From: Dysosmobacter sp.
GTDB lineage: Bacteria; Bacillota; Clostridia; Oscillospirales; Oscillospiraceae
Direction of reading: 5' to 3'
Assembly (NCBI GenBank): GCA_022778785.1
Contig: JALFSO010000106.1
Location: 1-60,240, forward strand
Length of the DNA: 60,240 nt
The notes under the pieces are model-generated. The model did not search any database. It was given only the letters and a program-made list of their open reading frames with translations, and was not told the origin of the DNA. How positions within the stretch are numbered: the stretch's first letter is position 1; every line of letters begins with the position of its first letter. This document shows, piece after piece, positions 49,585 through 60,108 of this stretch. Both the position numbers and the translations under genes were made by a program.

Positions 49585-49677
49585 GCGCCCCATTCTTTGT
49601 CAAAGCGCCCAATATTTTTGCGTTGTTCCCCATATCATTTGTCTGTATTGACAATTTTCTTTTCCATTTACGTGTGT

Positions 49678-49683
49678 TATGCT
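49678..49683 (+). promoter_or_regulatory. extended -10 of the aromatic operon
   Basis: TGT-TATGCT about 35 bp before the leader peptide start. A perfect TTGACA at 49648-49653 is 24 bp upstream, too far for a normal spacer. Transcription would start near 49690. Confidence 0.5.
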
Positions 49684-49717
49684 TTAAACATCTAAAGAAT
49701 CAAGGAGACCCTGTACC

Positions 49718-49816
49718 ATGATGACGCTGTCTCGCGCTGCCGAATACCGCTACTTTAGCTTTACCTACTTTACGGGTAAGGCTTATTTCGGTTTGGCTGA
49801 AAGCGCGAACGCTTGA
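49718..49816 (+). CDS. aromatic leader peptide (Tyr/Phe attenuation)
   Basis: 32 codons: MMTLSRAAEYRYFSFTYF then TGKAYFGLAESANA. Eight of 32 residues are aromatic (4 Tyr, 4 Phe), six of them in the nine-codon block 10-18. AAGGAG lies ten bases before the ATG. There is no Trp. The next gene is DAHP synthase, the first step of the Phe/Tyr pathway. The layout is that of pheA/trp leader peptides: ribosome stalling at scarce Tyr-tRNA or Phe-tRNA would let the operon be read. Confidence 0.88.
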   Translation: MMTLSRAAEYRYFSFTYFTGKAYFGLAESANA

Positions 49817-49890
49817 ATGCAGGAGTTGTCAGAGTTCCCCCAGTGCGCATGACGACCCGCAGCCGAACCGGCTGCGGGTCTTTTCTGTTT
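49739..49890 (+). promoter_or_regulatory. ribosome-mediated transcription attenuator of the aro operon
   Basis: Region 1 is 49739-49749 and region 2 is CGGTTTGGCTG (49789-49799, leader codons 24-28). Region 3 is CAGCCGAACCG (49860-49870). The terminator is GACCCGCAGCC (49854-49864) with GGCTGCGGGTC (49870-49880), then TTTTCTGTTT. Regions 2 and 3 pair over 11 bp with one G-U and would destroy the terminator. Regions 1 and 2 can pair over nine bases with two bulges. A further hairpin (GCTTTACC 49758-49765 with GGTAAGGC 49775-49782) lies over the Tyr/Phe codons as a possible pause site. A ribosome stalled at codons 10-18 covers region 1 and favours 2:3, giving read-through. Confidence 0.82.
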
Positions 49891-49943
49891 CACCAACCAA
49901 AAACAAAACAAAAACCGTTAAAAAATTTTAGGAGGAAGCAATC

Positions 49944-50957
49944 ATGATCGTCATTCTGAAACAAAACCCCAACCGCGACCAACTGGACAGTCTCATCTCC
50001 TGGCTCCAGGACAAGGGCATCTCCATCCACACCAGCATCGGCGAGGCCCACACCATTCTGGGCCTGGTGGGCGACACCTCCAAGCTGGACATCGACCTGA
50101 TCTCCGCGCTGGACATCGTGGAGGACGTGAAGCGGGTCCAGGAGCCCTATAAGAACGCCAACCGGAAGTTCCACCCCGAGGACACCATCATCCACGTGGG
50201 CAACACCCAGGTGGGCGGCGGCAATCTGACCCTCATGGCCGGTCCCTGCTCCGTGGAGAGCGAGGAGCAGGTGGTGGCCATCGCCAAGGCCGTGAAGGCC
50301 AGCGGCGCTACCATGCTCCGGGGCGGTGCCTTCAAGCCCCGCACCTCCCCCTACTCCTTCCAGGGCCTGGGCGAGACCGGTCTGAAATATCTGGAGATCG
50401 CCAAGGAGGAGACCGGCCTGCCCATCGTCACCGAGCTGATGGATCTGAGCCAGCTGCCTCTGTTCAAGAACGTGGACATCATCCAAATCGGCGCTCGGAA
50501 CATGCAGAACTTCGATCTGCTGAAGGCCGTGGGCCGGCAGGAGAAGCCCGTCATGATCAAGCGGGGCATGTCCGCCACCTACGAGGAGTGGCTCATGAGC
50601 GCCGAGTACGTCATGGCCGGCGGCAACCAGAACGTCATCCTGTGTGAGCGGGGCATCCGCACCTTTGAGAGCTACACCCGGAACACCCTGGATCTGGCGG
50701 CCATCCCCGTGCTGCGGAAGCTGACCCATCTGCCCATTATCATCGATCCCAGCCACGCCACCGGCAAGAACTGGCTGGTGGAGCCCCTGGCCCTGGGCGC
50801 CGTGGCCACCGGCTGCGACGGCCTGCAGATCGAGGTCCACAACGACCCCGCCCACGCCCGCTGCGATGGCCCCCAGTCCCTGCGGCCGGAGACCTTCGAC
50901 CAGGTGGCGAAGAAGCTGCTGAAGCTCCACGAGATGATGAAGACGCTGGAGGATTGA
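49944..50957 (+). CDS. aroF: 3-deoxy-7-phosphoheptulonate (DAHP) synthase, type I-beta
   Basis: 337 residues. Condenses phosphoenolpyruvate and erythrose 4-phosphate, the entry to the shikimate pathway. The N-terminal 70 residues (MIVILKQNPNRDQLDSLISW) are a ferredoxin-like regulatory domain as in Thermotoga-type enzymes that are inhibited by Tyr/Phe. The TIM barrel shows AGPCSVESEEQ, LRGGAFKPRTSPYSFQGLG, KRGMSATYEEW, and the metal-site DPSHATGKNW. GGAGGAAGCAATC precedes ATG 49944. First structural gene behind the Tyr/Phe attenuator. Confidence 0.97.
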   Translation: MIVILKQNPNRDQLDSLISWLQDKGISIHTSIGEAHTILGLVGDTSKLDIDLISALDIVEDVKRVQEPYKNANRKFHPEDTIIHVGNTQVGGGNLTLMAGPCSVESEEQVVAIAKAVKASGATMLRGGAFKPRTSPYSFQGLGETGLKYLEIAKEETGLPIVTELMDLSQLPLFKNVDIIQIGARNMQNFDLLKAVGRQEKPVMIKRGMSATYEEWLMSAEYVMAGGNQNVILCERGIRTFESYTRNTLDLAAIPVLRKLTHLPIIIDPSHATGKNWLVEPLALGAVATGCDGLQIEVHNDPAHARCDGPQSLRPETFDQVAKKLLKLHEMMKTLED

Positions 50958-50961
50958 TTGT

Positions 50962-51798
50962 ATGAATGTTGGTATTGTGGGTCTGGGCCTCATCGGAGGC
51001 TCCATGGCCAAAAGCATCAAAGCCCGCACCGGCCACACAGTGTACGGCATCGCCCGCAGCGAGGAGACCCTGATGATGGCCCGGATGTGCGGCGCCATCG
51101 ACGGAGCGCTGACAGACGAGACGCTGCCCCAGTGTGACCTGATCCTGGTGGCCATCCGGCCCCAGGCTGCCATCGACTGGGTGAGAGACCACGCGGACAG
51201 GATCGCCAAGTCCGCCATCCTGGTGGATCTGTGCGGCGTGAAGCGCACCGTGGTGGCAGCCATCTCCCCCATCGCCGAGGCGCACGGCTTCGCCTATATC
51301 GGCGGCCATCCCATGGCCGGCAAGGAGCGGGGCGGCTTCACCTCCGCCACAGAGGATCTGTACGTAGGCGCCTCTATGATCCTGACCCCTGACAAGCGGA
51401 CGGACATGCAGCAGCTGGATATCCTGAAGGCTTTCTTTTTGGATGTAGGCTTCGCGGGGCTGACCTTCTCCACCCCGGAGGAGCACGACCGCATCATCGC
51501 CTACACCTCCCAGCTGGCCCATATCGTCTCCAGCGCCTACATCAAGTCCCCCGAGGCCCAGCGCCGCCGGGGCTTCTCCGCCGGCAGCTTCCGGGATATG
51601 ACCCGGGTAGCCCGTCTGGACGAGGACATGTGGACCGAGCTGTTCCTGGACGACGCGGACTATCTGACGGAGGAGCTGGATATCCTGATCCAGCACCTTC
51701 AGGAGTACGCCGCCGTGCTGAAGGACCGGGACGCCCAGAAGCTCCACGACCTGCTGAAGGACGGCCGGGAGAAGAAGGCGTCGGCAGGCGGTCACTGA
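50962..51798 (+). CDS. tyrA: prephenate dehydrogenase
   Basis: 278 residues. NAD-dependent oxidative decarboxylation of prephenate to 4-hydroxyphenylpyruvate, the tyrosine branch. Rossmann start GIVGLGLIGGSMAKSI; catalytic histidine region IGGHPMAGKERGGF and TSQLAHIVSSAYIKSP. The start is four bases after the aroF stop and its ribosome site lies in the aroF end. No ACT domain at the C-terminus. It is followed by the hairpin array. Confidence 0.95.
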   Translation: MNVGIVGLGLIGGSMAKSIKARTGHTVYGIARSEETLMMARMCGAIDGALTDETLPQCDLILVAIRPQAAIDWVRDHADRIAKSAILVDLCGVKRTVVAAISPIAEAHGFAYIGGHPMAGKERGGFTSATEDLYVGASMILTPDKRTDMQQLDILKAFFLDVGFAGLTFSTPEEHDRIIAYTSQLAHIVSSAYIKSPEAQRRRGFSAGSFRDMTRVARLDEDMWTELFLDDADYLTEELDILIQHLQEYAAVLKDRDAQKLHDLLKDGREKKASAGGH

Positions 51799-51804
51799 CG
51801 CAGG

Positions 51805-52080
51805 CCTCAAGGGGGAGCAGGCTCCCCCTTGAGGAACCCCCACCACCAGTGACGTCGGTCACTGGTGTGTGCGCCCAATGGCGCACGAGTCAAGGTATTT
51901 TTCCGACGTACACGCCGCCGGAAAAATGATTCCGGCAGATTGCTCCGCCCCTTGGGCGGAGCAACCGGGAACCTACGGTTCCCTGGCCCCTCCCTTTGTT
52001 CTTTCGCCGGAGGCGAAAGAATTGGGTGGGAACCGCTGGTTCCCACCCAACCCTTTTCCCGGGTCGGCGGCTGCGGGAAA
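51805..52080. repeat. array of nine consecutive hairpins between tyrA and aroB
   Basis: Nine inverted repeats in 276 bp, each with its own sequence, mostly perfect: 14 bp (51805-51834), 10 bp (51844-51867), 7 bp (51869-51886), 9 bp (51897-51927), 11 bp (51940-51964), 7 bp (51967-51983), 10 bp (51999-52021), 13 bp (52022-52050), 7 bp (52055-52080). Loops are mostly 2-4 nt; the fourth and ninth hairpins have 13- and 12-nt loops. No ribosome-linked ORF. An alternative stem CCGGAA/TTCCGG (51918-51935) competes with the fourth. It is probably a structured RNA or DNA element inserted within the operon. Confidence 0.8.
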
Positions 52081-52137
52081 CGCCGCAATTCTCTGACCTA
52101 TTCCCATCTATTCATTCATATATAAGGATGTACCGTT

Positions 52138-53208
52138 ATGTCTGACTCCATCAAAACTGTTGATATCCGCGTGAATCCCCCCTATCAGGTCCACATCGGC
52201 GGCGGTCTGCTGGCCCGATGCGGCTCTTATCTGCTGGACGCCGTGGGCATGTGCCATCTGGCCGTGGTGGCGGATTCCACCGTGGCCCCTCTGTATCTGG
52301 ACACCGTGACGGACAGCCTGCGTCAGGCGGGCTATCCGGTGAGCACCTATATCTATCCCGCGGGTGAGTCCCATAAAAATCTGGATACCTTATCCGATAT
52401 TCTGGAATTTCTGGCGGCGGAGCATCTGACCCGTTCCGACTGCGTCGTGGCCCTGGGCGGCGGCGTGTGCGGCGACATGGCAGGCTTTGCCGCCGGATGC
52501 TATCTCCGGGGCATCCGCTATGTCCAGTTGCCCACCACCCTGCTGTCCGCCGTGGACTCCTCCGTGGGCGGCAAGACCGCCATTGATCTCAAGGCGGGCA
52601 AGAATCTGGCGGGCGTGTTCCTCCAGCCCTCCGCCGTCCTCTGCGACACGGACACCCTCCGGACTCTGCCGCCCCACGTCTTTGCCGACGGCGCCGCCGA
52701 GGCCATCAAGACCGGCGTCCTCAGCGACGAGAGCCTGTTTGCCCTGTTCGATACCGACGATCTCCAGGCGGACATCGGCGAGGTGGCAGCCCGGTGCATC
52801 GCCTTCAAGGGCAGCGTGGTGGAACAGGACGAGAAGGACAACGGCGTCCGCCGGACCCTGAATCTGGGCCACACCGCCGGACACGCCATTGAGAAGTGCG
52901 CGGGCTTCACCATCACCCACGGCCACGCCGTGGCCATCGGCATGGTGCTGATCGCCCGGGCGGCGGAGAAGCTGGGCTGGTGTAAGGAGCCCTGTGCGGA
53001 GCGCATCGCCGCCGTGCTGCGGCGGAACCATCTGCCCACCTCCACGGAGTACACCGCAAAGGCGCTGGCGGAGGCCGCCCTGTCCGACAAGAAGCGCCGG
53101 GGCGGCACCATCTCCCTGGTGATCCCCCGGCGGATCGGCGACTGCTATATGAAGACCATTCCGGTGACGGAGCTGGAGGCGGTATTCGCCGCCGGACTGG
53201 AGGGCTGA
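52138..53208 (+). CDS. aroB: 3-dehydroquinate synthase
   Basis: 356 residues. Second shikimate step, NAD and metal dependent. Motifs include CVVALGGGVCGDMAGFAAGCYLRG, PTTLLSAVDSSVGGKTAIDL and NLGHTAGHAIE with metal-binding histidines. ATG 52138 with AAGGAT upstream. First gene after the hairpin array; aroA follows two bases after its stop. Confidence 0.97.
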   Translation: MSDSIKTVDIRVNPPYQVHIGGGLLARCGSYLLDAVGMCHLAVVADSTVAPLYLDTVTDSLRQAGYPVSTYIYPAGESHKNLDTLSDILEFLAAEHLTRSDCVVALGGGVCGDMAGFAAGCYLRGIRYVQLPTTLLSAVDSSVGGKTAIDLKAGKNLAGVFLQPSAVLCDTDTLRTLPPHVFADGAAEAIKTGVLSDESLFALFDTDDLQADIGEVAARCIAFKGSVVEQDEKDNGVRRTLNLGHTAGHAIEKCAGFTITHGHAVAIGMVLIARAAEKLGWCKEPCAERIAAVLRRNHLPTSTEYTAKALAEAALSDKKRRGGTISLVIPRRIGDCYMKTIPVTELEAVFAAGLEG

Positions 53209-53210
53209 CC

Positions 53211-54437
53211 ATGGACGTGCGCATCGAACCCCGGCGTCTGGCCGGCGCCGTGACGCCGCCCCCCAGCAAGTCCATGGCCCACCGGCTGATCATCGCCGCC
53301 GCGTTGGGCAGCGGCGTCAGCACTGTCCGGAACGTGGCCATGTCCCAGGACATCCAGGCCACCCTGCGGTGCATCACTGCCCTGGGCGGACAGTGGGAGC
53401 AGCCGTCGGAAGACCTCCTCACCATCCACGGCTTCGGCGGGAAAAGTCCCGTGTCCGGGGAACTGCCCCTGCTGGACTGCGGGGAGTCCGGCTCCACTCT
53501 GCGGTTCTTCATCCCCATCGCCCTGGCGGCCGCCGGAGGCGGCGTGTTCACCGGCCGGGGACGGCTGATGGAGCGGCCCCAGAAGCCCTATTTTGACCTG
53601 TTCGACGAGCGGGGCATCTTCCATGAGCAGACGGACGGCGTCCTCACCGTCCGGGGACGGCTGGTGCCGGGGGAGTACCGTCTGCCCGGCAACGTGTCCA
53701 GCCAGTTCTTCACCGGCCTGCTGTTCGCCCTGCCGCTGCTGGACGGGGACAGCTCCATCGTCTCCACCACGGCGCTGGAGTCCTCGGATTACATCAGCAT
53801 GACCCTGGAGGCCATGGCCCGGGCGGGCGCCGCCCCGGAGATGGGTGCCGGCCGGCAGAGCTATCGTGTGACGCCCGCCGATTACCGGCCCGTGGACGCC
53901 GCCGTGGAGGCGGACTGGTCCCAGGCGGGCTTCTGGTACGCCGCAAAGGCGCTGGGAAGCCCGGTGGAGCTTCAGGGACTGGACCCCGACTCCACCCAGG
54001 GCGACCGGATCGTTGCCGCCCACTATGAGCGGCTGACACAGCCCGGAGACGCGGACATCGACGTGTCCGGCTGTCCGGATCTGCTGCCGCCCATGGCGGT
54101 AATGGCGTCCATCCGGCAGGGCACCACCCGCTTCGTCAATGCCGCCCGGCTCCGCATCAAGGAGAGCGACCGGCTGAAGACCACCGCCGCCCTGCTGAAC
54201 GCCCTGGGCGGGCAGGCGGAAGAGGGCCCCGACAGCCTGACGGTCCGGGGCGTGTCCGCCTTCACCGGCGGCACGGTGGACGGGGCCAACGACCACCGCA
54301 TCGTCATGGCGGCGGCCATCGCCGCCACCCGCTCCGCCGGTCCCGTGACCATTCTGGGGGCCGAGGCGGTGCGGAAATCCTATCCCGGCTTCTGGGATGA
54401 TTACAAACGTCTGGGAGGTGACGTCCATGTCCTCTGA
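53211..54437 (+). CDS. aroA: 3-phosphoshikimate 1-carboxyvinyltransferase (EPSP synthase)
   Basis: 408 residues. Joins shikimate 3-phosphate and PEP. Two inverse alpha/beta domains; PPSKSMAHRLIIAAAL carries the substrate lysine, LLDCGESGSTLRFFIP and RIKESDRLKTTAALLNALG are family blocks. The G-E-S-G-S-T-L-R loop (instead of G-N-A-G-T) and sequence style point to the divergent class of EPSP synthases found in clostridia. It overlaps aroC by 11 bases. Confidence 0.95.
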   Translation: MDVRIEPRRLAGAVTPPPSKSMAHRLIIAAALGSGVSTVRNVAMSQDIQATLRCITALGGQWEQPSEDLLTIHGFGGKSPVSGELPLLDCGESGSTLRFFIPIALAAAGGGVFTGRGRLMERPQKPYFDLFDERGIFHEQTDGVLTVRGRLVPGEYRLPGNVSSQFFTGLLFALPLLDGDSSIVSTTALESSDYISMTLEAMARAGAAPEMGAGRQSYRVTPADYRPVDAAVEADWSQAGFWYAAKALGSPVELQGLDPDSTQGDRIVAAHYERLTQPGDADIDVSGCPDLLPPMAVMASIRQGTTRFVNAARLRIKESDRLKTTAALLNALGGQAEEGPDSLTVRGVSAFTGGTVDGANDHRIVMAAAIAATRSAGPVTILGAEAVRKSYPGFWDDYKRLGGDVHVL

Positions 54438-55512
54438 ATTCGGCAAAACGCTGAAGATCTCCGTCTTCGGCCAGTCCCACGGCAAGGCCATCGGCGTGAA
54501 CATCGACGGGCTCCCCGCCGGGGAATCCATCGACCTGGATGCCCTGAACGCCTTCATGGCCCGGCGGAAGCCCGGCAAGAGTCCCCTGTCCACTTCCCGG
54601 AAGGAGGCGGACGCCCCGGTGTTCCTGTCCGGTCTGGAGAACGGCGTCACCTGCGGCTTTCCGCTGTGCGCCATCATTGAAAACGGCGACCAGCACTCCT
54701 CGGACTACGATGAGCTGCGGGAGAAGCCCCGGCCCGGTCACGCGGACTACACCGCCTGGGTCAAGTGGCACGGTGCGGCGGATATGCGGGGCGGCGGACA
54801 CTTCTCCGGCCGTCTGACGGCGCCGCTGTGCATCGCCGGCGGCATCGCCAAGCAGATCCTGGCCCGGCGGAGCATCTTCGTGGGCGCCCATCTGCTGGAG
54901 GTGGCGGGCATCACGGATCAGCCCTTCCCCCTGCGGCCGGACGCGGCGCTGTTTGACGCCGTGGCTGCCAAGGCCTTCCCGGTACTGGACGACGGCGCGG
55001 GCGAGCGGATGCAGGCGGCCATTCTGGCCGCCCGGAAGGACGGGGACTCCGTGGGCGGCGTCATCCAGTGCGCCGCCGTGGGCCTCCCCGCCGGACTGGG
55101 GGACCCCATGTTCGACGGGCTGGAGAACCGTCTGGCCGCGGCGCTGTTCGGCATCCCCGCCGTGAAGGGCCTGGAGTTTGGGGCGGGCTTCGCTGCGTCC
55201 CGGTGCCGGGGCTCCGAGAACAACGACCCCTTCACCGTGGAGGACGGGCGGGTCGTCACCACGTCCAACCACGCCGGCGGCATCCTGGGCGGCATCTCCA
55301 CCGGAATGCCCCTGGTGTTCCAGCTGGCCATGAAGCCCACGCCGTCTATCTCCAAGCCCCAGCACACCGTCAGCCTCCCGAACATGGAGGACGCGGAGCT
55401 GGTGGTCCGGGGCCGTCACGACCCCTGCATCGCTCACCGGGCCGTGCCGGTGGCGGAGGCGGTGACGGCGGCGGTGCTGCTGGACGTTCTGCTGGAAAAC
55501 GGCGGACTCTGA
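54427..55512 (+). CDS. aroC: chorismate synthase
   Basis: 361 residues. Removes phosphate from EPSP to give chorismate, needing reduced FMN. Signatures GQSHGKAIGVNIDGLPAGE, RPGHADYTAW, SGRLTAPLCIAGGIAKQIL and GRHDPCIAHRAVPVAEAV. ATG 54427 is preceded by GGAGGTGACGTCC inside the aroA end. Chorismate is the branch point to Phe, Tyr, Trp and folate. Confidence 0.97.
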   Translation: MSSEFGKTLKISVFGQSHGKAIGVNIDGLPAGESIDLDALNAFMARRKPGKSPLSTSRKEADAPVFLSGLENGVTCGFPLCAIIENGDQHSSDYDELREKPRPGHADYTAWVKWHGAADMRGGGHFSGRLTAPLCIAGGIAKQILARRSIFVGAHLLEVAGITDQPFPLRPDAALFDAVAAKAFPVLDDGAGERMQAAILAARKDGDSVGGVIQCAAVGLPAGLGDPMFDGLENRLAAALFGIPAVKGLEFGAGFAASRCRGSENNDPFTVEDGRVVTTSNHAGGILGGISTGMPLVFQLAMKPTPSISKPQHTVSLPNMEDAELVVRGRHDPCIAHRAVPVAEAVTAAVLLDVLLENGGL

Positions 55513-55579
55513 GCCGCCGGTGCCGTGTGAGACCGAGATCTGATATTTTCTGATATTTTGATATATGGAGGGAACCCCT

Positions 55580-56716
55580 ATGGAACTCAATGAAATCCGG
55601 ACCCGGATCGACGCTGTGGACGATCAGCTCCTGCAGCTGTTCCTGGAGCGCATGGGGCTGGCGGAGGAGGTCGCCGCCTACAAAAACGAGCATCATCTGC
55701 CCATAATGAACAAGCAGCGGGAGCGGGACATCCTGGCGAAGGTCATGAAAAAGTCCGGCGACAAGGAGCGCTACGCCTATCACCTGTTCTCCACCCTGTT
55801 TGAGCTGGCCCGGTCCCGGCAGGCGGAACTGCTGACCGCCCCCACCAAGGTGGAGGCCCAGGTGAAGGCGTCCCTGGCCGCCGGCGGCGAGATCTTCCCC
55901 CAGACGGGCCTGGTGGCCTGCCAGGGCGTGGAGGGCGCCAACTCCCAGGTGGCCTGCGACAAGCTGCTGCCCCGGGGCAACATCGTCTATGTGAAGACCT
56001 TTGACGCCGTGGTCTCCGCCGTGGAGTCCGGCCTGTGCAAGTTCGGCGTGCTGCCCATTGAAAACAGCTCCAACGGCTCCGTCCGGAAGGTGTATGAGCT
56101 GCTGCAGACCCACAACCTGTCCATCGTCCGCTCCACCCGGCTGTGTATCCGCCACGAGCTGCTGACCCTGCCCGGCGTGAAGATGGAGGACATCACGGAG
56201 ATCTACTCTCATGAGCAGGCCATCGGCCAGTGCTCCAAGTTCCTGGGCGGTCTCAGCGGCATCCGGGTGGTCCCCTGCGCCAACACCGCCGTGGCCGCCA
56301 AGATGGTGGCCGAGAGCGGCAGCCGCCACGTCGCTGCCATCTCCTCCCATCCCTGTGCGGCGCTGTACGGTCTGGAGTGCCTCAACGACCGCATTCAGGA
56401 CAGTGACAACAACTACACCCGGTTCATCTGCGTCACCAAGGACCCCGCCATCTACGCCGGTGCCAACCGCATCTCCCTGGTCATCGCCTTTGAGAACCGC
56501 CCCGGTGCCCTGTACGACATCCTGTCCAAGCTGGCGGCGCTGGACATCAACCTGACAAAGCTGGAGTCCTGCCCCGTGGCCGGCAGCGACTTCGAGTTCA
56601 TCTTCTTCCTGGAGCTGGACGCCTCCGTCCGGGATGCCAGCGTGCTGGCCATGCTGGAGGAGATGGAGCGCAGCTGCGCCCAGTTCCAGTTCCTGGGCAA
56701 CTACGCGGAAGTGTGA
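55580..56716 (+). CDS. pheA: bifunctional chorismate mutase / prephenate dehydratase
   Basis: 378 residues. Three parts: AroQ-class chorismate mutase (about 1-85, IRTRIDAVDDQLLQLFLERM), prephenate dehydratase (about 105-285, with GVLPIENSSNGSV and the threonine of YTRFICV), and an ACT domain (about 300-378, ISLVIAFENRPGALYDIL) that senses phenylalanine. Leads chorismate to phenylpyruvate and supplies prephenate for tyrA. GGAGGG precedes ATG 55580; a frame beginning earlier is unsupported. Confidence 0.96.
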   Translation: MELNEIRTRIDAVDDQLLQLFLERMGLAEEVAAYKNEHHLPIMNKQRERDILAKVMKKSGDKERYAYHLFSTLFELARSRQAELLTAPTKVEAQVKASLAAGGEIFPQTGLVACQGVEGANSQVACDKLLPRGNIVYVKTFDAVVSAVESGLCKFGVLPIENSSNGSVRKVYELLQTHNLSIVRSTRLCIRHELLTLPGVKMEDITEIYSHEQAIGQCSKFLGGLSGIRVVPCANTAVAAKMVAESGSRHVAAISSHPCAALYGLECLNDRIQDSDNNYTRFICVTKDPAIYAGANRISLVIAFENRPGALYDILSKLAALDINLTKLESCPVAGSDFEFIFFLELDASVRDASVLAMLEEMERSCAQFQFLGNYAEV

Positions 56717-56719
56717 GCC

Positions 56720-57964
56720 ATGGGAGAGAAGATCTACGGCCTGCTGGGCCGGAAGCTGGGCCACAGCTGGTCCCCTCCCATCCACCGCGCCCTCGGCTGT
56801 GAGAGCTACCGGCTCATTGAGCTGGAGCCGGAGGAGCTGGCGGACTTTCTCCGTCGGGAGGATATCGGCGGCCTGAACGTCACCATCCCCTACAAGCGGG
56901 ACGTGATGCCCTGCTGCGACGTCATCGACGAGGCGGCGCTGGCCATCGGCAGCGTCAACACCATCGTCCGCCGGGCGGACGGCAAGCTGTACGCCTACAA
57001 CACCGACGCCGCCGGCTTCTGTTGGATGGCCCGCCGGGCGGGCATCAGCTTTGCCGGGAAAAAGGCCGTCATCCTGGGCAGCGGCGGCGCGTCCCTCACC
57101 GCCCGGGCCATGGCGAAAAAGCTGGGCGCCCGGGAGATCGCGGTGATCTCCCGCAGCGGCGAGAACAACTACCAGAACCTCTCCCGCCACGCGGACGCGG
57201 ACATTGTGGTGAACACCACGCCGGTGGGCACCTATCCGGACGTGGGAAAGGCGGCGGTGGACCTGCGGGACTTCCCCCACTGCACCGGCGTGCTGGACGT
57301 GGTGTACAATCCCCGCCGGACGGCCCTGCTGCTCCAGGCGGAGGAGCTGGGCATCCCCCATTCCGACGGTCTGCCCATGCTGGTGGCCCAGGCCGTGGCG
57401 GCGGAGGAGCACTTCTTTGACAAGACCATCCCGGACAGCGAGAACGAGCGCATTCTGGCCCAGCTCCGGCGGGACACCCAGAATATCGTCCTCATCGGCA
57501 TGCCCGGCAGCGGCAAGACCACCATCGGCCACGCCCTGGCGGAGCTGACGGGCCGGGAGGCCCTGGACGTGGACGAGGCCATCGTGGCCCGGGCGGGCAA
57601 GAGCATCCCGGATATCTTCGCCCAGGACGGCGAGCCGGTCTTCCGGGACCTGGAGCGGCATGAGACCGCCAACGCCGGCAAGCTGTCCGGAAAGATCATC
57701 CTCACCGGCGGCGGCGTGGTAAAGGACGGCCGGAATTATCCGTCCCTCCACCAGAACGGCCGCATCTACGAGCTGAGCCGCTCCCTGGACGTGCTGCCCA
57801 CCGACGGCCGGCCCCTGTCTCAGACCACGGATCTGCACGCCATGTACGCGGAGCGGGCGCCCATGTACACCCGGTTCCGGGACGCGCAGATCGACAACAA
57901 CGGCGCCGCCGCGGACACCGCGGCGGCCATCTGGAGGGATTTCTGTGAACATTCTGGTGATTAA
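56720..57964 (+). CDS. shikimate dehydrogenase - shikimate kinase fusion (AroE-AroK)
   Basis: 414 residues. Residues 1-250 are AroE: LLGRKLGHSWSPPIHRAL, NVTIPYKRDV (catalytic Lys), NTDAAGFCWM, GSGGASLTARAMAKKLGA (NADP site) and NTTPVGTYPD. Residues 255-414 are AroK: GMPGSGKTTIGHAL (P-loop), DVDEAI, FRDLERHE and TGGGVV. One chain would thus perform steps four and five of the pathway. There is no stop codon or frameshift at the junction. Starts three bases after pheA. Confidence 0.95.
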   Translation: MGEKIYGLLGRKLGHSWSPPIHRALGCESYRLIELEPEELADFLRREDIGGLNVTIPYKRDVMPCCDVIDEAALAIGSVNTIVRRADGKLYAYNTDAAGFCWMARRAGISFAGKKAVILGSGGASLTARAMAKKLGAREIAVISRSGENNYQNLSRHADADIVVNTTPVGTYPDVGKAAVDLRDFPHCTGVLDVVYNPRRTALLLQAEELGIPHSDGLPMLVAQAVAAEEHFFDKTIPDSENERILAQLRRDTQNIVLIGMPGSGKTTIGHALAELTGREALDVDEAIVARAGKSIPDIFAQDGEPVFRDLERHETANAGKLSGKIILTGGGVVKDGRNYPSLHQNGRIYELSRSLDVLPTDGRPLSQTTDLHAMYAERAPMYTRFRDAQIDNNGAAADTAAAIWRDFCEHSGD

Positions 57965-58370
57965 CGGCCCCAACCTCAACATGCTGGGCATCCGGGAGCC
58001 GGACATCTACGGCAGGGCCACCTACGTCGACCTGTGCGAGCTGATCCGTCAGGAGGCGGAGGCGCTGGGGGCGCGGGTGGAGTTCTTCCAGTCCAACCAC
58101 GAGGGGGCCATCGTGGACGCCATCCAGGCCGCCTACGGAAAAATGGACGGCATCATCATCAATCCCGCCGCCTACACCCACACCAGCGTGGCTCTGCTGG
58201 ACGCGGTGAAGGCCGTGGGCATCCCCACAGTGGAGGTCCACATCTCCGATCCGGACACCCGGGACGAGTTCCGGAAGATCTCCTACATCCGGGCGGCCTG
58301 CGCCGCCACCATCAAGGGCCACGGCTTCCAGGGCTATGTGGAAGCTCTTCGGTTCCTCTGCGGGAAGTGA
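57945..58370 (+). CDS. aroQ: 3-dehydroquinate dehydratase, type II
   Basis: 141 residues, dodecameric type II enzyme for step three. Family core: INGPNLNMLGIREPDIYG (catalytic Tyr), EFFQSNHEGAIVDAI, IINPAAYTHTSVAL (Asn/His), EVHISDPDTRDEFRKIS and IKGHGFQGYVEAL. GTG start at 57945 with GGAGGG upstream, inside the end of the AroE-AroK gene (20-base overlap). Last gene of the operon, before a strong terminator. Confidence 0.97.
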   Translation: MNILVINGPNLNMLGIREPDIYGRATYVDLCELIRQEAEALGARVEFFQSNHEGAIVDAIQAAYGKMDGIIINPAAYTHTSVALLDAVKAVGIPTVEVHISDPDTRDEFRKISYIRAACAATIKGHGFQGYVEALRFLCGK

Positions 58371-58443: not shown

Positions 58444-59835
58444 TCAGATGCCCAGGATGAGGGTGGCGAAGCGGAAGTAGATCAGCAGGGACAGGGAGTC
58501 CACGATGGTGGAGATGAAGGGGGAAGCCATGACAGCCGGGTCGAAGCCGATCTTCTCCGCCAGGATGGGAAGGGAGCAGCCCACCAGCTTGGCACACAGC
58601 ACGGTGCCCACCAGCGTGCAGCACACTACCAGCGCCACCATGGGCGTCACGGTGGGATTGTGCAGCAGCCAGCGGTCAATGAGCATCATCTTCACAAAGT
58701 TGGCCGCTGCCAGACAGATGCCGCAGATGATGGATACCCGGAATTCCTTCCAGATGACCTGCAGCAGATCGGAAAAGCGGACCTCGTTCAGGGACAGGGC
58801 GCGGATGATGGCGGTGGAGGCCTGGGTGCCGCTGTTGCCGCCGGTGCCGGAGAGCATGGGGATAAACGAGGTCAGGATGGCGCAGGACGCCAGGGCGTCC
58901 TCAAAGTGGGTGAGGATGATGCCGGTGAAGGTGGCGGAGAGCATCAGGATCATCAGCCAGGGGGTGCGGGCCTTCCAGGTCTCGAACACACCGGTCTTGA
59001 GGTAGGGCTTGTCGGAGGGCAGGATGGCGGCCATCTTCTCGATATCCTCGGTGGTCTCCTCCTGCAGAACGTCGATGGCGTCGTCGACGGTGACGATGCC
59101 CACCAGGCGGTTCTCCCGGTCCACTACCGGCAGAGCCAGGAAGTCGTACTTGCTCAAGGCCTGGGCCACCGTCTCCTGGTCGTCCATCGTCTGGACAGAG
59201 ACGATGTTGGTCTCCATGATGTCGCCGATCCTGGCATCGTCCTCCGCCAGCAGCAGCGTCCGGATGGTCACCAGGCCGATGAGGTGGCGGTTGCTGTCGA
59301 TGACGTAGCTGACGTTGATGGTCTCCTTGTCCGGCCCGGTGCGGCGGATGTGCTTCAGAGCGTCCTCCACCGTCAGGTGCTCCTTCAGATCCACGAACTC
59401 CGTGGTCATGATGCTGCCGGCGGAGTCCTCCGGATACTTCAGGATCTCGTTGATGCTCTTCCGGGTCTCCGGATCGGAGTGGCGGAGGATGCGCTTGACC
59501 ACGTTGGCCGGCATCTCCTCCACGATGTCCACGGTATCGTCCAGATACAGCTCGTCCAGCACTTCCTTCAGCTCCGTGTTGGAGAAGCCCTGGATCAGCA
59601 GCTCCTGTTCGTCGGAGTCCAGTTCCACGAACACCTCCGCCGCCAGTTCCTTGGGCAGCAGGCGGAACACCAGCGGCATCCGCTCCGGGCCCAGATCCTC
59701 CATGATGAGGGCGATGTCCGCCGCCTCCATGGGAAGCAGGAGGTCACGCAGCTCGGCGTAACGCTTTCGGACGATCAGATCCTCAATTTTTTCTACCAGC
59801 TCCGCCCGTTCGTTTTCATTCTCATAGTCAAACAC
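58444..59835 (-). CDS. mgtE: magnesium transporter MgtE
   Basis: 463 residues. Mg2+-gated Mg2+ channel. N-terminal superhelical domain (about 1-130), two CBS domains (about 135-255, with VDSNRHLIGLVTIRTLL and VVDRENRLVGIVTVDDAID), a plug helix, and five membrane helices with the pore motif PMLSGTGGNSGTQASTAIIRAL. GTG start at 59835 with AAAGGAGG eight bases upstream. Controlled by an M-box riboswitch and terminator directly upstream. Confidence 0.96.
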   Translation of the reverse strand: MFDYENENERAELVEKIEDLIVRKRYAELRDLLLPMEAADIALIMEDLGPERMPLVFRLLPKELAAEVFVELDSDEQELLIQGFSNTELKEVLDELYLDDTVDIVEEMPANVVKRILRHSDPETRKSINEILKYPEDSAGSIMTTEFVDLKEHLTVEDALKHIRRTGPDKETINVSYVIDSNRHLIGLVTIRTLLLAEDDARIGDIMETNIVSVQTMDDQETVAQALSKYDFLALPVVDRENRLVGIVTVDDAIDVLQEETTEDIEKMAAILPSDKPYLKTGVFETWKARTPWLMILMLSATFTGIILTHFEDALASCAILTSFIPMLSGTGGNSGTQASTAIIRALSLNEVRFSDLLQVIWKEFRVSIICGICLAAANFVKMMLIDRWLLHNPTVTPMVALVVCCTLVGTVLCAKLVGCSLPILAEKIGFDPAVMASPFISTIVDSLSLLIYFRFATLILGI

Positions 59836-59913: not shown

Positions 59914-59942
59914 ATATCAAAATCCGCCGCCGGAAGCCCACA

Positions 59943-60108
59943 GGCTCCGCACCGTTCAAGCTTTAGCCTCACAAGGCGGTGCAGTTGCGTTAGATGATAC
60001 CTTGACATTCGATATCGCCTGTTCAAACCCTCTCATGATGTCTCCATCACTCTGCGGCAGCAACCCATATCCCTGTGGTAGCCTTACCTACCGGACGTTA
60101 TATAATTA
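59943..60108 (-). ncRNA. M-box (ykoK) magnesium riboswitch
   Basis: Conserved M-box blocks on the minus strand: GGTAGGTAAGGCTACC with GGGATATGGGTTGCTGCCG at the 5' side, CGATATCGAATGTCAAGG in the centre, and ACGCAACTGCACC ... GTGAGGCTAAAGCTT at the 3' side. Order and spacing match known ykoK leaders. In this class, Mg2+ binding compacts the RNA and turns the gene off. A TATAAC-like -10 lies just upstream (near 60100-60107). No gene overlaps it. Confidence 0.87.

Follow-up and report, generated by a model that had tools for sequence, protein, structure and literature searches.

The classical leader-peptide design is that of the pheA and trp attenuators of enteric bacteria, and Gram-positive bacteria, by common account, use T-boxes and TRAP for their amino acid operons; T-box leaders (RF00230) respond to uncharged tRNA by controlling a terminator. 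In the accessible parts of the respective reports, His leader-peptide attenuators are described at hisS and hisZ in Bacilli (PMC2965389), the his form of the design is sketched along with his-operon leader peptides of the B. cereus group, Peptostreptococcaceae, Lutispora and Erysipelotrichales (PMC9413887), and leader peptides are described in Actinobacteria as well (PMC1262725). Upstream of aroF itself, the uORFC-13-1 motif, as presented in the portion of the source available, has 24 representatives from Acholeplasma and environmental sequences, with at least one Phe residue in its upstream ORF (uORF) and a terminator, and its authors suggest attenuation (PMC8632094).

Here, we describe a leader that precedes aroF in a 60,240-nt stretch of Dysosmobacter sp. 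DNA (the window; all coordinates below refer to it, on the plus strand unless stated otherwise). We consider it very likely that this leader is a ribosome-mediated (leader-peptide) transcription attenuator of the downstream shikimate/Phe/Tyr operon, a reading whose support comes from sequence and comparison, namely the ORF, its codons, the terminator, the exclusive antiterminator, their conservation, and the gene content of the operon. The leader ORF (49718-49816), recognized from the sequence and its relatives, runs from an ATG at 49718 through 32 sense codons (MMTLSRAAEYRYFSFTYFTGKAYFGLAESANA) to a TGA stop (49814-49816) and is preceded, 10 nt before the ATG, by a Shine-Dalgarno (SD) sequence, AAGGAG (49702-49707); SD-like blocks also precede the leaders of relatives. 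Eight of its codons are for Tyr or Phe, six of which (Tyr10, Tyr12, Phe13, Phe15, Tyr17, and Phe18) make up a putative control-codon block (49745-49771) that is also indicated by Tyr/Phe enrichment across genera, and the other two a second pair, Tyr23-Phe24 (49784-49789). Further upstream, a candidate extended -10 element of the leader promoter, TGTTATGCT (49675-49683), is suggested by the consensus, and a similar block is found ~30-60 nt upstream of the leader ATG in most of 28 same-genus upstream regions, while a sigma-70 scan reported no plus-strand promoter at this site.

The distance from the leader stop to the aroF start (49944) is 127 nt and includes an intrinsic terminator with a U-rich tail (49854-49889), recognized by a terminator scan and in the alignment of 28 loci, with a 12-pair stem (49854-49865 / 49869-49880), the tail TTTTCTGTTT, and a hairpin energy of -24.9. 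Four terminator-like sites were found in 501 nt on both strands vs. a mean of 0.6 in shuffles, and folding of the 201-nt leader including the terminator gave a z of -4.6, with 0/200 shuffles equally stable, vs. a z of -1.75 and 9/200 for the leader without it. The terminator is mutually exclusive with an antiterminator of 11 pairs including a single G-U (-18.3 kcal/mol), formed by region 2 (49789-49799) as the 5' strand and region 3 (49860-49870), which overlaps the 5' arm and loop of the terminator, as the 3' strand. Region 1 (49739-49749) is able to pair with 49789-49797 (nine pairs, a 2-nt bulge, -9.4 kcal/mol), and a hairpin lies within the ORF itself (AGCUUUACC / GGUAAGGCU; 49757-49783). 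That is, the 32-codon ORF with its ribosome site and eight aromatic codons, the strong terminator before aroF, and the 11-bp antiterminator that precludes it are all present as the initial annotation had described them.

Under the mechanism we propose, transcription would begin ~30 nt upstream of the leader ORF and a ribosome would translate the 32 codons of the leader. When charged tRNA-Tyr or tRNA-Phe ran short, the ribosome would stall in block 10-18 and leave region 2 free to pair with the emerging region 3; the terminator would then be blocked and aroF-tyrA-aroB-aroA-aroC-pheA-aroEK-aroQ would be transcribed. With both charged tRNAs plentiful, the ribosome would reach the stop over region 2 and region 3 would form the terminator, and an untranslated leader would be expected to form the region 1:2 stem and terminate as well. 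The hairpin within the ORF probably pauses RNA polymerase and keeps ribosome and polymerase in step; a polymerase pause hairpin is our guess by analogy with the trp leader, which has one. A stall-dependent switch of this kind is predicted by folding the window leader with the sequence through 14 nt past the first A-site base omitted, the footprint being an assumption. In the free leader, region 1:2 had a probability of 0.95 and the antiterminator 0, and a stall at codon 10, 12, 13, 15, 17 or 18 raised the predicted antiterminator probability to 0.96-0.97, while a stall at codon 23, 24 or the stop would cover region 2, with the terminator pairs winning. Hence, by these predictions, the six-codon block is the stretch where a stall should turn the operon on.

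The downstream genes begin with aroF (DAHP synthase, 49944-50957), followed by tyrA (prephenate dehydrogenase, 50962-51798), aroB (3-dehydroquinate synthase, 52138-53208), aroA (EPSP synthase, 53211-54437), aroC (chorismate synthase, 54397-55512; the listed ORF start overlaps aroA and the true start may be further in), pheA (chorismate mutase and prephenate dehydratase with an ACT-like end below the Pfam cut-off, 55565-56716), an aroE-aroK fusion (shikimate dehydrogenase and shikimate kinase, 56720-57964), and aroQ (type II dehydroquinase, 57945-58370). These eight same-strand genes encompass the common pathway, the Phe branch and the Tyr branch, and we infer a single transcript for all of them. 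The 340-nt gap between tyrA and aroB is filled (51800-52110) by a hairpin-rich dispersed repeat with 40 DNA matches in its own genome (itself counted, E<=0.001), many of the copies longer than 100 nt at 72-90% identity, and, lying within the operon, it might influence how the distal genes are expressed. Beyond the operon, an M-box magnesium riboswitch (RF00380, 89.3 bits; 59940-60102, minus strand) lies upstream of an mgtE-type transporter gene (58444-59835, minus strand).

A search of 60 genomes, including the window's own, gave an aroF match in 47, and 30 loci, all from the window's genus and with the window among them, were examined. The leader was present in 28 of the 30 (window counted), with the core A-E-Y-R-Y-F-S-F-T-Y-F-x-G-K-A-Y-F-G-L-A or a variant of it. 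No leader was seen at L028 within an upstream sequence only 200 nt long, and L030 (genome G029, same genus) has aroF without a leader, where the leader regulation may have been lost or replaced; two further loci of the genus carry the usual leader (L050) and a divergent one, MANVFFGIYYFYFTMQS (L054). Members of the genus retain both the start codon and the reading frame, and the two gaps within the ORF body in the alignment of the 28 are 6 and 3 nt long. The initial annotation had named covariation of the three stems as a check, and the outcome differed among them. For the terminator, 95.7% of alignment cells were paired, four pairs were changed on both sides, and the observed pairing values were reached by only 0-4 of 500 shuffles. 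For the antiterminator, 96.4% of cells were paired vs. at most 53% when slid, but within the genus there were no double changes and the pairing was no better than column shuffles; therefore, its support comes from the between-family comparison (below). Region 1:2 was paired in 89.3% of cells, likewise no better than column shuffles when scored together with the hairpin inside the ORF, and it outperformed shuffled sequences in just 2 of the 27 genus members compared.

The hairpin inside the coding sequence (49757-49783) was 99.6% paired, with seven of its nine pairs invariant in the 28 sequences, and when the surrounding stretch was recoded synonymously 300 times per locus, no more than two recodings equalled its stability in any of the 28 loci, under either of two codon weightings. 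Since so few recodings are equally stable, RNA structure, and not the peptide alone, is apparently under selection at this site.

Using the nucleotide core of the leader as a pattern in named genomes, we found 74 loci, with titles that include Oscillibacter, Dysosmobacter, Flintibacter, Lawsonibacter and Fimivivens, and many that are uncultured Oscillospiraceae, Clostridia or Firmicutes. The next gene was aroF in 73 of them, 145-187 nt after the core start; the remaining locus, L122, had no aroF match, its sequence ending ~94 nt past the core. An ATG with an SD sequence was found in 73/74 as well, the exception (L092) having a GTG start and being left out of later counts. The 73 leaders are 27-39 residues long, contain 7-11 Tyr/Phe codons each, amount to 70 distinct peptides, and are followed, without exception (73/73), by a terminator 22-39 nt after the stop. 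The search pattern itself fixes part of the peptide, and only the remainder represents independent evidence.

To the 30 same-genus loci we added 20 aroF upstream regions from the first set and a further 100 found by searching 197 genomes across the order, giving 150 order regions, 149 of which were long enough; the 100 were hand-picked among the matches listed, mainly as each genome's higher-scoring match, and the shares reported are not those of a random sample. An equally good Tyr/Phe-rich ORF with an SD sequence arose in at most 5 of 100 shuffles for 109/149 order regions (51/67 genera), and a terminator followed the best ORF in 116/149. Outside the order, 60 regions from 40 families, likewise chosen, from a class-wide search of 156 genomes, gave 35 that passed the same ORF test, or 32, in 24 families, without the T-box or T-box-like loci L297, L300 and L301; L297 and L301 pass although they are T-boxes by Rfam, and L300 is a T-box by motif only. 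Outside the class, 9 of 20 of the best-scoring regions of the phylum passed, with one of the nine, L321, looking doubtful, and none of the 20 matched Rfam. The test failed in 40/149 order regions and 25/60 regions outside the order, which include true leaders that narrowly missed (L050, L012) as well as T-box loci. Two order regions, L067 and L068, resemble T-boxes by eye, and the passing of L068 is probably a false positive.

In a blind selection, ATG, SD, length, and the distance from the strongest terminator were the sole grounds for choosing the ORF, and composition was ignored. This yielded an ORF in 146 of 209 regions (83/124 genera, 44 families), and, taking one per genus, at least five Tyr/Phe were present in 82/83 genera vs. 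28/172 shuffled-upstream controls. At least five Tyr/Phe making up at least 18% of residues were found in 76/83 genera (43 families) vs. 10/172 controls, and at least two Tyr together with at least two Phe in 77/83. The seven genera that fall short of this combined threshold include four other-style leaders in family f23 (described below), and two or three of the seven ORFs are probably not the leader. Residue shares relative to controls were 12.4% vs. 2.9% for Tyr, 16.1% vs. 6.2% for Phe and 1.0% vs. 1.8% for Trp, and the enrichment over 59 control ORFs was 4.2-fold for Tyr and 2.6-fold for Phe, with Trp at 0.5, Leu at 0.5 and His at 0.3. The shuffle tests and the blind pick lead us to reject a chance ORF, and Trp, not being enriched, is rejected as the sensed amino acid in the general case. 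The leader peptides of different families otherwise share little (e.g., MKRNFNFSNYYYYFTEFFGKVI, MFINCVASKYYYSYYFRKK, MTKNFAFAYFYFYFYFGK). The earlier claim of a Tyr/Phe attenuator of the shikimate operon is, in sum, backed by comparison, including the conservation of Tyr/Phe codons in relatives that had been put forward as a check, but its restriction to one lineage has to be abandoned, as such leaders occur in numerous families at the level of order, class, and phylum.

Two side observations concern the composition of these leaders. Other-style aroF leaders with Trp and a non-repetitive sequence were seen in family f23 (L057, L188, L198, L211, L229; roughly RFxxFxYPRxFxAWxFxAC) and in other genera of family f1 (L191, L192, L194, L196, L206; roughly TTASFxFxYGWARFMGxGFFG), and these might have a different sensing or read Trp too. 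Also, the Phe codons TTT and TTC number 366 vs. 65 in the blind-pick leaders, and, in the window's genus, 102 vs. 25 in 28 leaders as opposed to 16 vs. 64 in seven operon genes; the TTT excess perhaps reflects a slow codon used for sensing, or merely an AU-rich leader.

Between families, the antiterminator was assessed as the best duplex of the ORF-to-terminator stretch with the terminator 5' arm and loop, compared with the shuffled stretch. The pairing reached p<0.05 in 57/111 leaders and, with one locus per genus, in 23/51 (median p 0.07); in a re-run with fewer shuffles, 20/51 genera did so vs. 5/51 with the arm reversed and 2/51 with the arm shuffled. Outside the order, p<0.05 was obtained in 14/33 regions and p<0.01 in 8 of them, whereas singly the pairing was not significant in 28/51 genera and 19/33 outside-order regions. 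A swap control with the arms of other families was weaker, the own arm being in the best 5% for 15/51 (median 0.16), perhaps because the arms of different families are alike. The strands vary by family (GGUUUGGCUG in L001, AAUGAUGAGCG in L065, AGUGAUUUGUGCUGCC in L253), which indicates that the pairing has been remade and not only inherited. Consistent with the initial annotation, which had expected the alternative pairing to be conserved in relatives, a strand that pairs with the terminator is thus found between families (20-23/51 genera). Of the 323 Tyr/Phe codons in the 36 genera with p<=0.15, 314 precede the antiterminator strand, which starts between -41 and +11 nt from the end of the stop codon; in many other families this strand could be near enough to the stop for the ribosome itself to cover it. 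The competing region 1 pairing, by comparison, is present and plausible in the window as annotated earlier, but beat shuffles at p<0.05 in only 4 of these 36 genera; as a general part of the design it is unsupported, and the stem can at most be a peculiarity of the window's genus.

Alternatively, the peptide itself might be the sensor, the nascent chain binding free Tyr/Phe in the exit tunnel or arresting the ribosome at a set place, in the style of the TnaC and SpeFL systems. Such a sensor would fit with the conservation in the genus of S-F-T...G-K-A...G-L-A besides Tyr/Phe (the 74 core loci that show these residues were found by a pattern including them) and with the non-repetitive motif with Trp that several f23 and f1 loci share. 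However, little except Tyr/Phe content is conserved between families, and the conserved non-aromatic residues of the genus coincide with RNA pairing: the hairpin formed by the S-F-T and G-K-A codons exceeds almost every synonymous recoding in stability, and region 2 coincides with the G-L-A codons. We find this explanation quite unlikely.

The near-invariance of that hairpin (seven of nine pairs) would also suit an RNA-binding protein that reads 49757-49783 and chooses between terminator and antiterminator, with the ORF being incidental, but start codon and frame have been preserved within the genus, and the Tyr/Phe-rich ORF is general, yet many leaders of other families are without the S-F-T...G-K-A core, which makes such a protein, in our judgment, very improbable. 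It is hardly credible, finally, that the small ORF, conserved and furnished with an SD sequence as it is, encodes a functional microprotein and that the terminator merely lowers basal expression, given that the peptide is unconserved between families and what is kept is the codon content, the nearness of the terminator, and the alternative pairing. Hence, we favor attenuation by a ribosome that stalls at Tyr and Phe codons.

A T-box or other riboswitch at the window leader is rejected for lack of an Rfam match: RF00230 gave no match in 49600-49950 even at E<=10, and no model matched the leader at its curated score, the best being RF04312 (23.8 bits vs. 59, E 0.34), with nothing better than chance at E<=10. 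An NCBIfam hmmscan of three leader peptides (E<=1) likewise returned no family. Across the 80 loci of distant relatives scanned with Rfam (the 60 outside the order and the 20 outside the class), only T-boxes matched, seven in number, all upstream of aroF homologues from further families within the class (L292, L293, L294, L297, L299, L301, L302); in these loci, one type of sensor has naturally been swapped for another ahead of the same gene. The window's own genome has 19 T-box matches, eight of them above the Rfam cut-off, including one before tyrS (93.7 bits), while that before trpE scores 87.9 bits, below the cut-off of 93 (E 9.5e-20). Within one genome, tRNA-Tyr therefore seems to be monitored by a T-box in the case of tyrS and, under the attenuation model, by stalling at codons in the case of the aro operon. 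Because the sequences differ too much between families, there is no covariance model of the whole class, and the leaders may be uncatalogued for the same reason, being too divergent for any of the Rfam or NCBIfam models in those tested.

Taken together, one operon is seemingly under leader-peptide control in many of the sampled families of Clostridia, and the window's genome carries T-boxes before tyrS and trpE. The similar arrangements, with very different sequences, that precede aroF in dozens of related families appear to be a widespread sensor, so far hardly catalogued, of what the pathway itself produces. It is tempting to go further, although we give the following somewhat less than even credence: that these leaders form an ancient, vertically kept class of attenuators of Clostridia and neighbouring classes, which read Tyr and Phe from one codon block to set the shikimate/Phe/Tyr pathway; that, with the antiterminator strand beside the stop codon in many families, the ribosome is the only protector needed; that T-boxes are a replacement in some groups and not ancestral for aroF; and that the Oscillibacter group has, in addition, fixed its coding sequence as an RNA pause hairpin. 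Such leaders would allow predicting which bacteria turn on aromatic synthesis at low Tyr or Phe, and they offer dozens of natural replicates of codon block, antiterminator, and terminator changing together.

With respect to described systems, the kind of attenuator is already known. The literature searched, which included few subscription journals, yielded no counterpart for the mixing of Tyr and Phe codons in one block, an operon that spans the full pathway, the wide occurrence in Clostridia, or the fixed hairpin in the coding sequence, and we do not claim that these are absent from print. Compared by description with the available part of its report, uORFC-13-1 is similar in having a Phe-coding uORF and a terminator upstream of aroF, but is described there from one genus and environmental DNA, as opposed to the 7-11 Tyr/Phe codons in 73 leaders, the tested antiterminator, and the many other families reported here. 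The His attenuators of Firmicutes, as far as the accessible portions of those papers describe them, share with this leader the use of a classical leader peptide in Gram-positives instead of a T-box, and differ in the amino acid and in being known from a few lineages each. T-boxes differ in that they rely on tRNA binding, as opposed to the codon translation proposed for the window leader. The closest parallel in design, the pheA and trp attenuators of enteric bacteria, likewise combines a short leader, control codons for the end product, a terminator before the first gene, and an exclusive antiterminator; unlike these, the window leader belongs to a different phylum and mixes Tyr and Phe codons in one block, the common, Phe and Tyr parts of the pathway would be controlled together, and the region 1:2 stem is not general.
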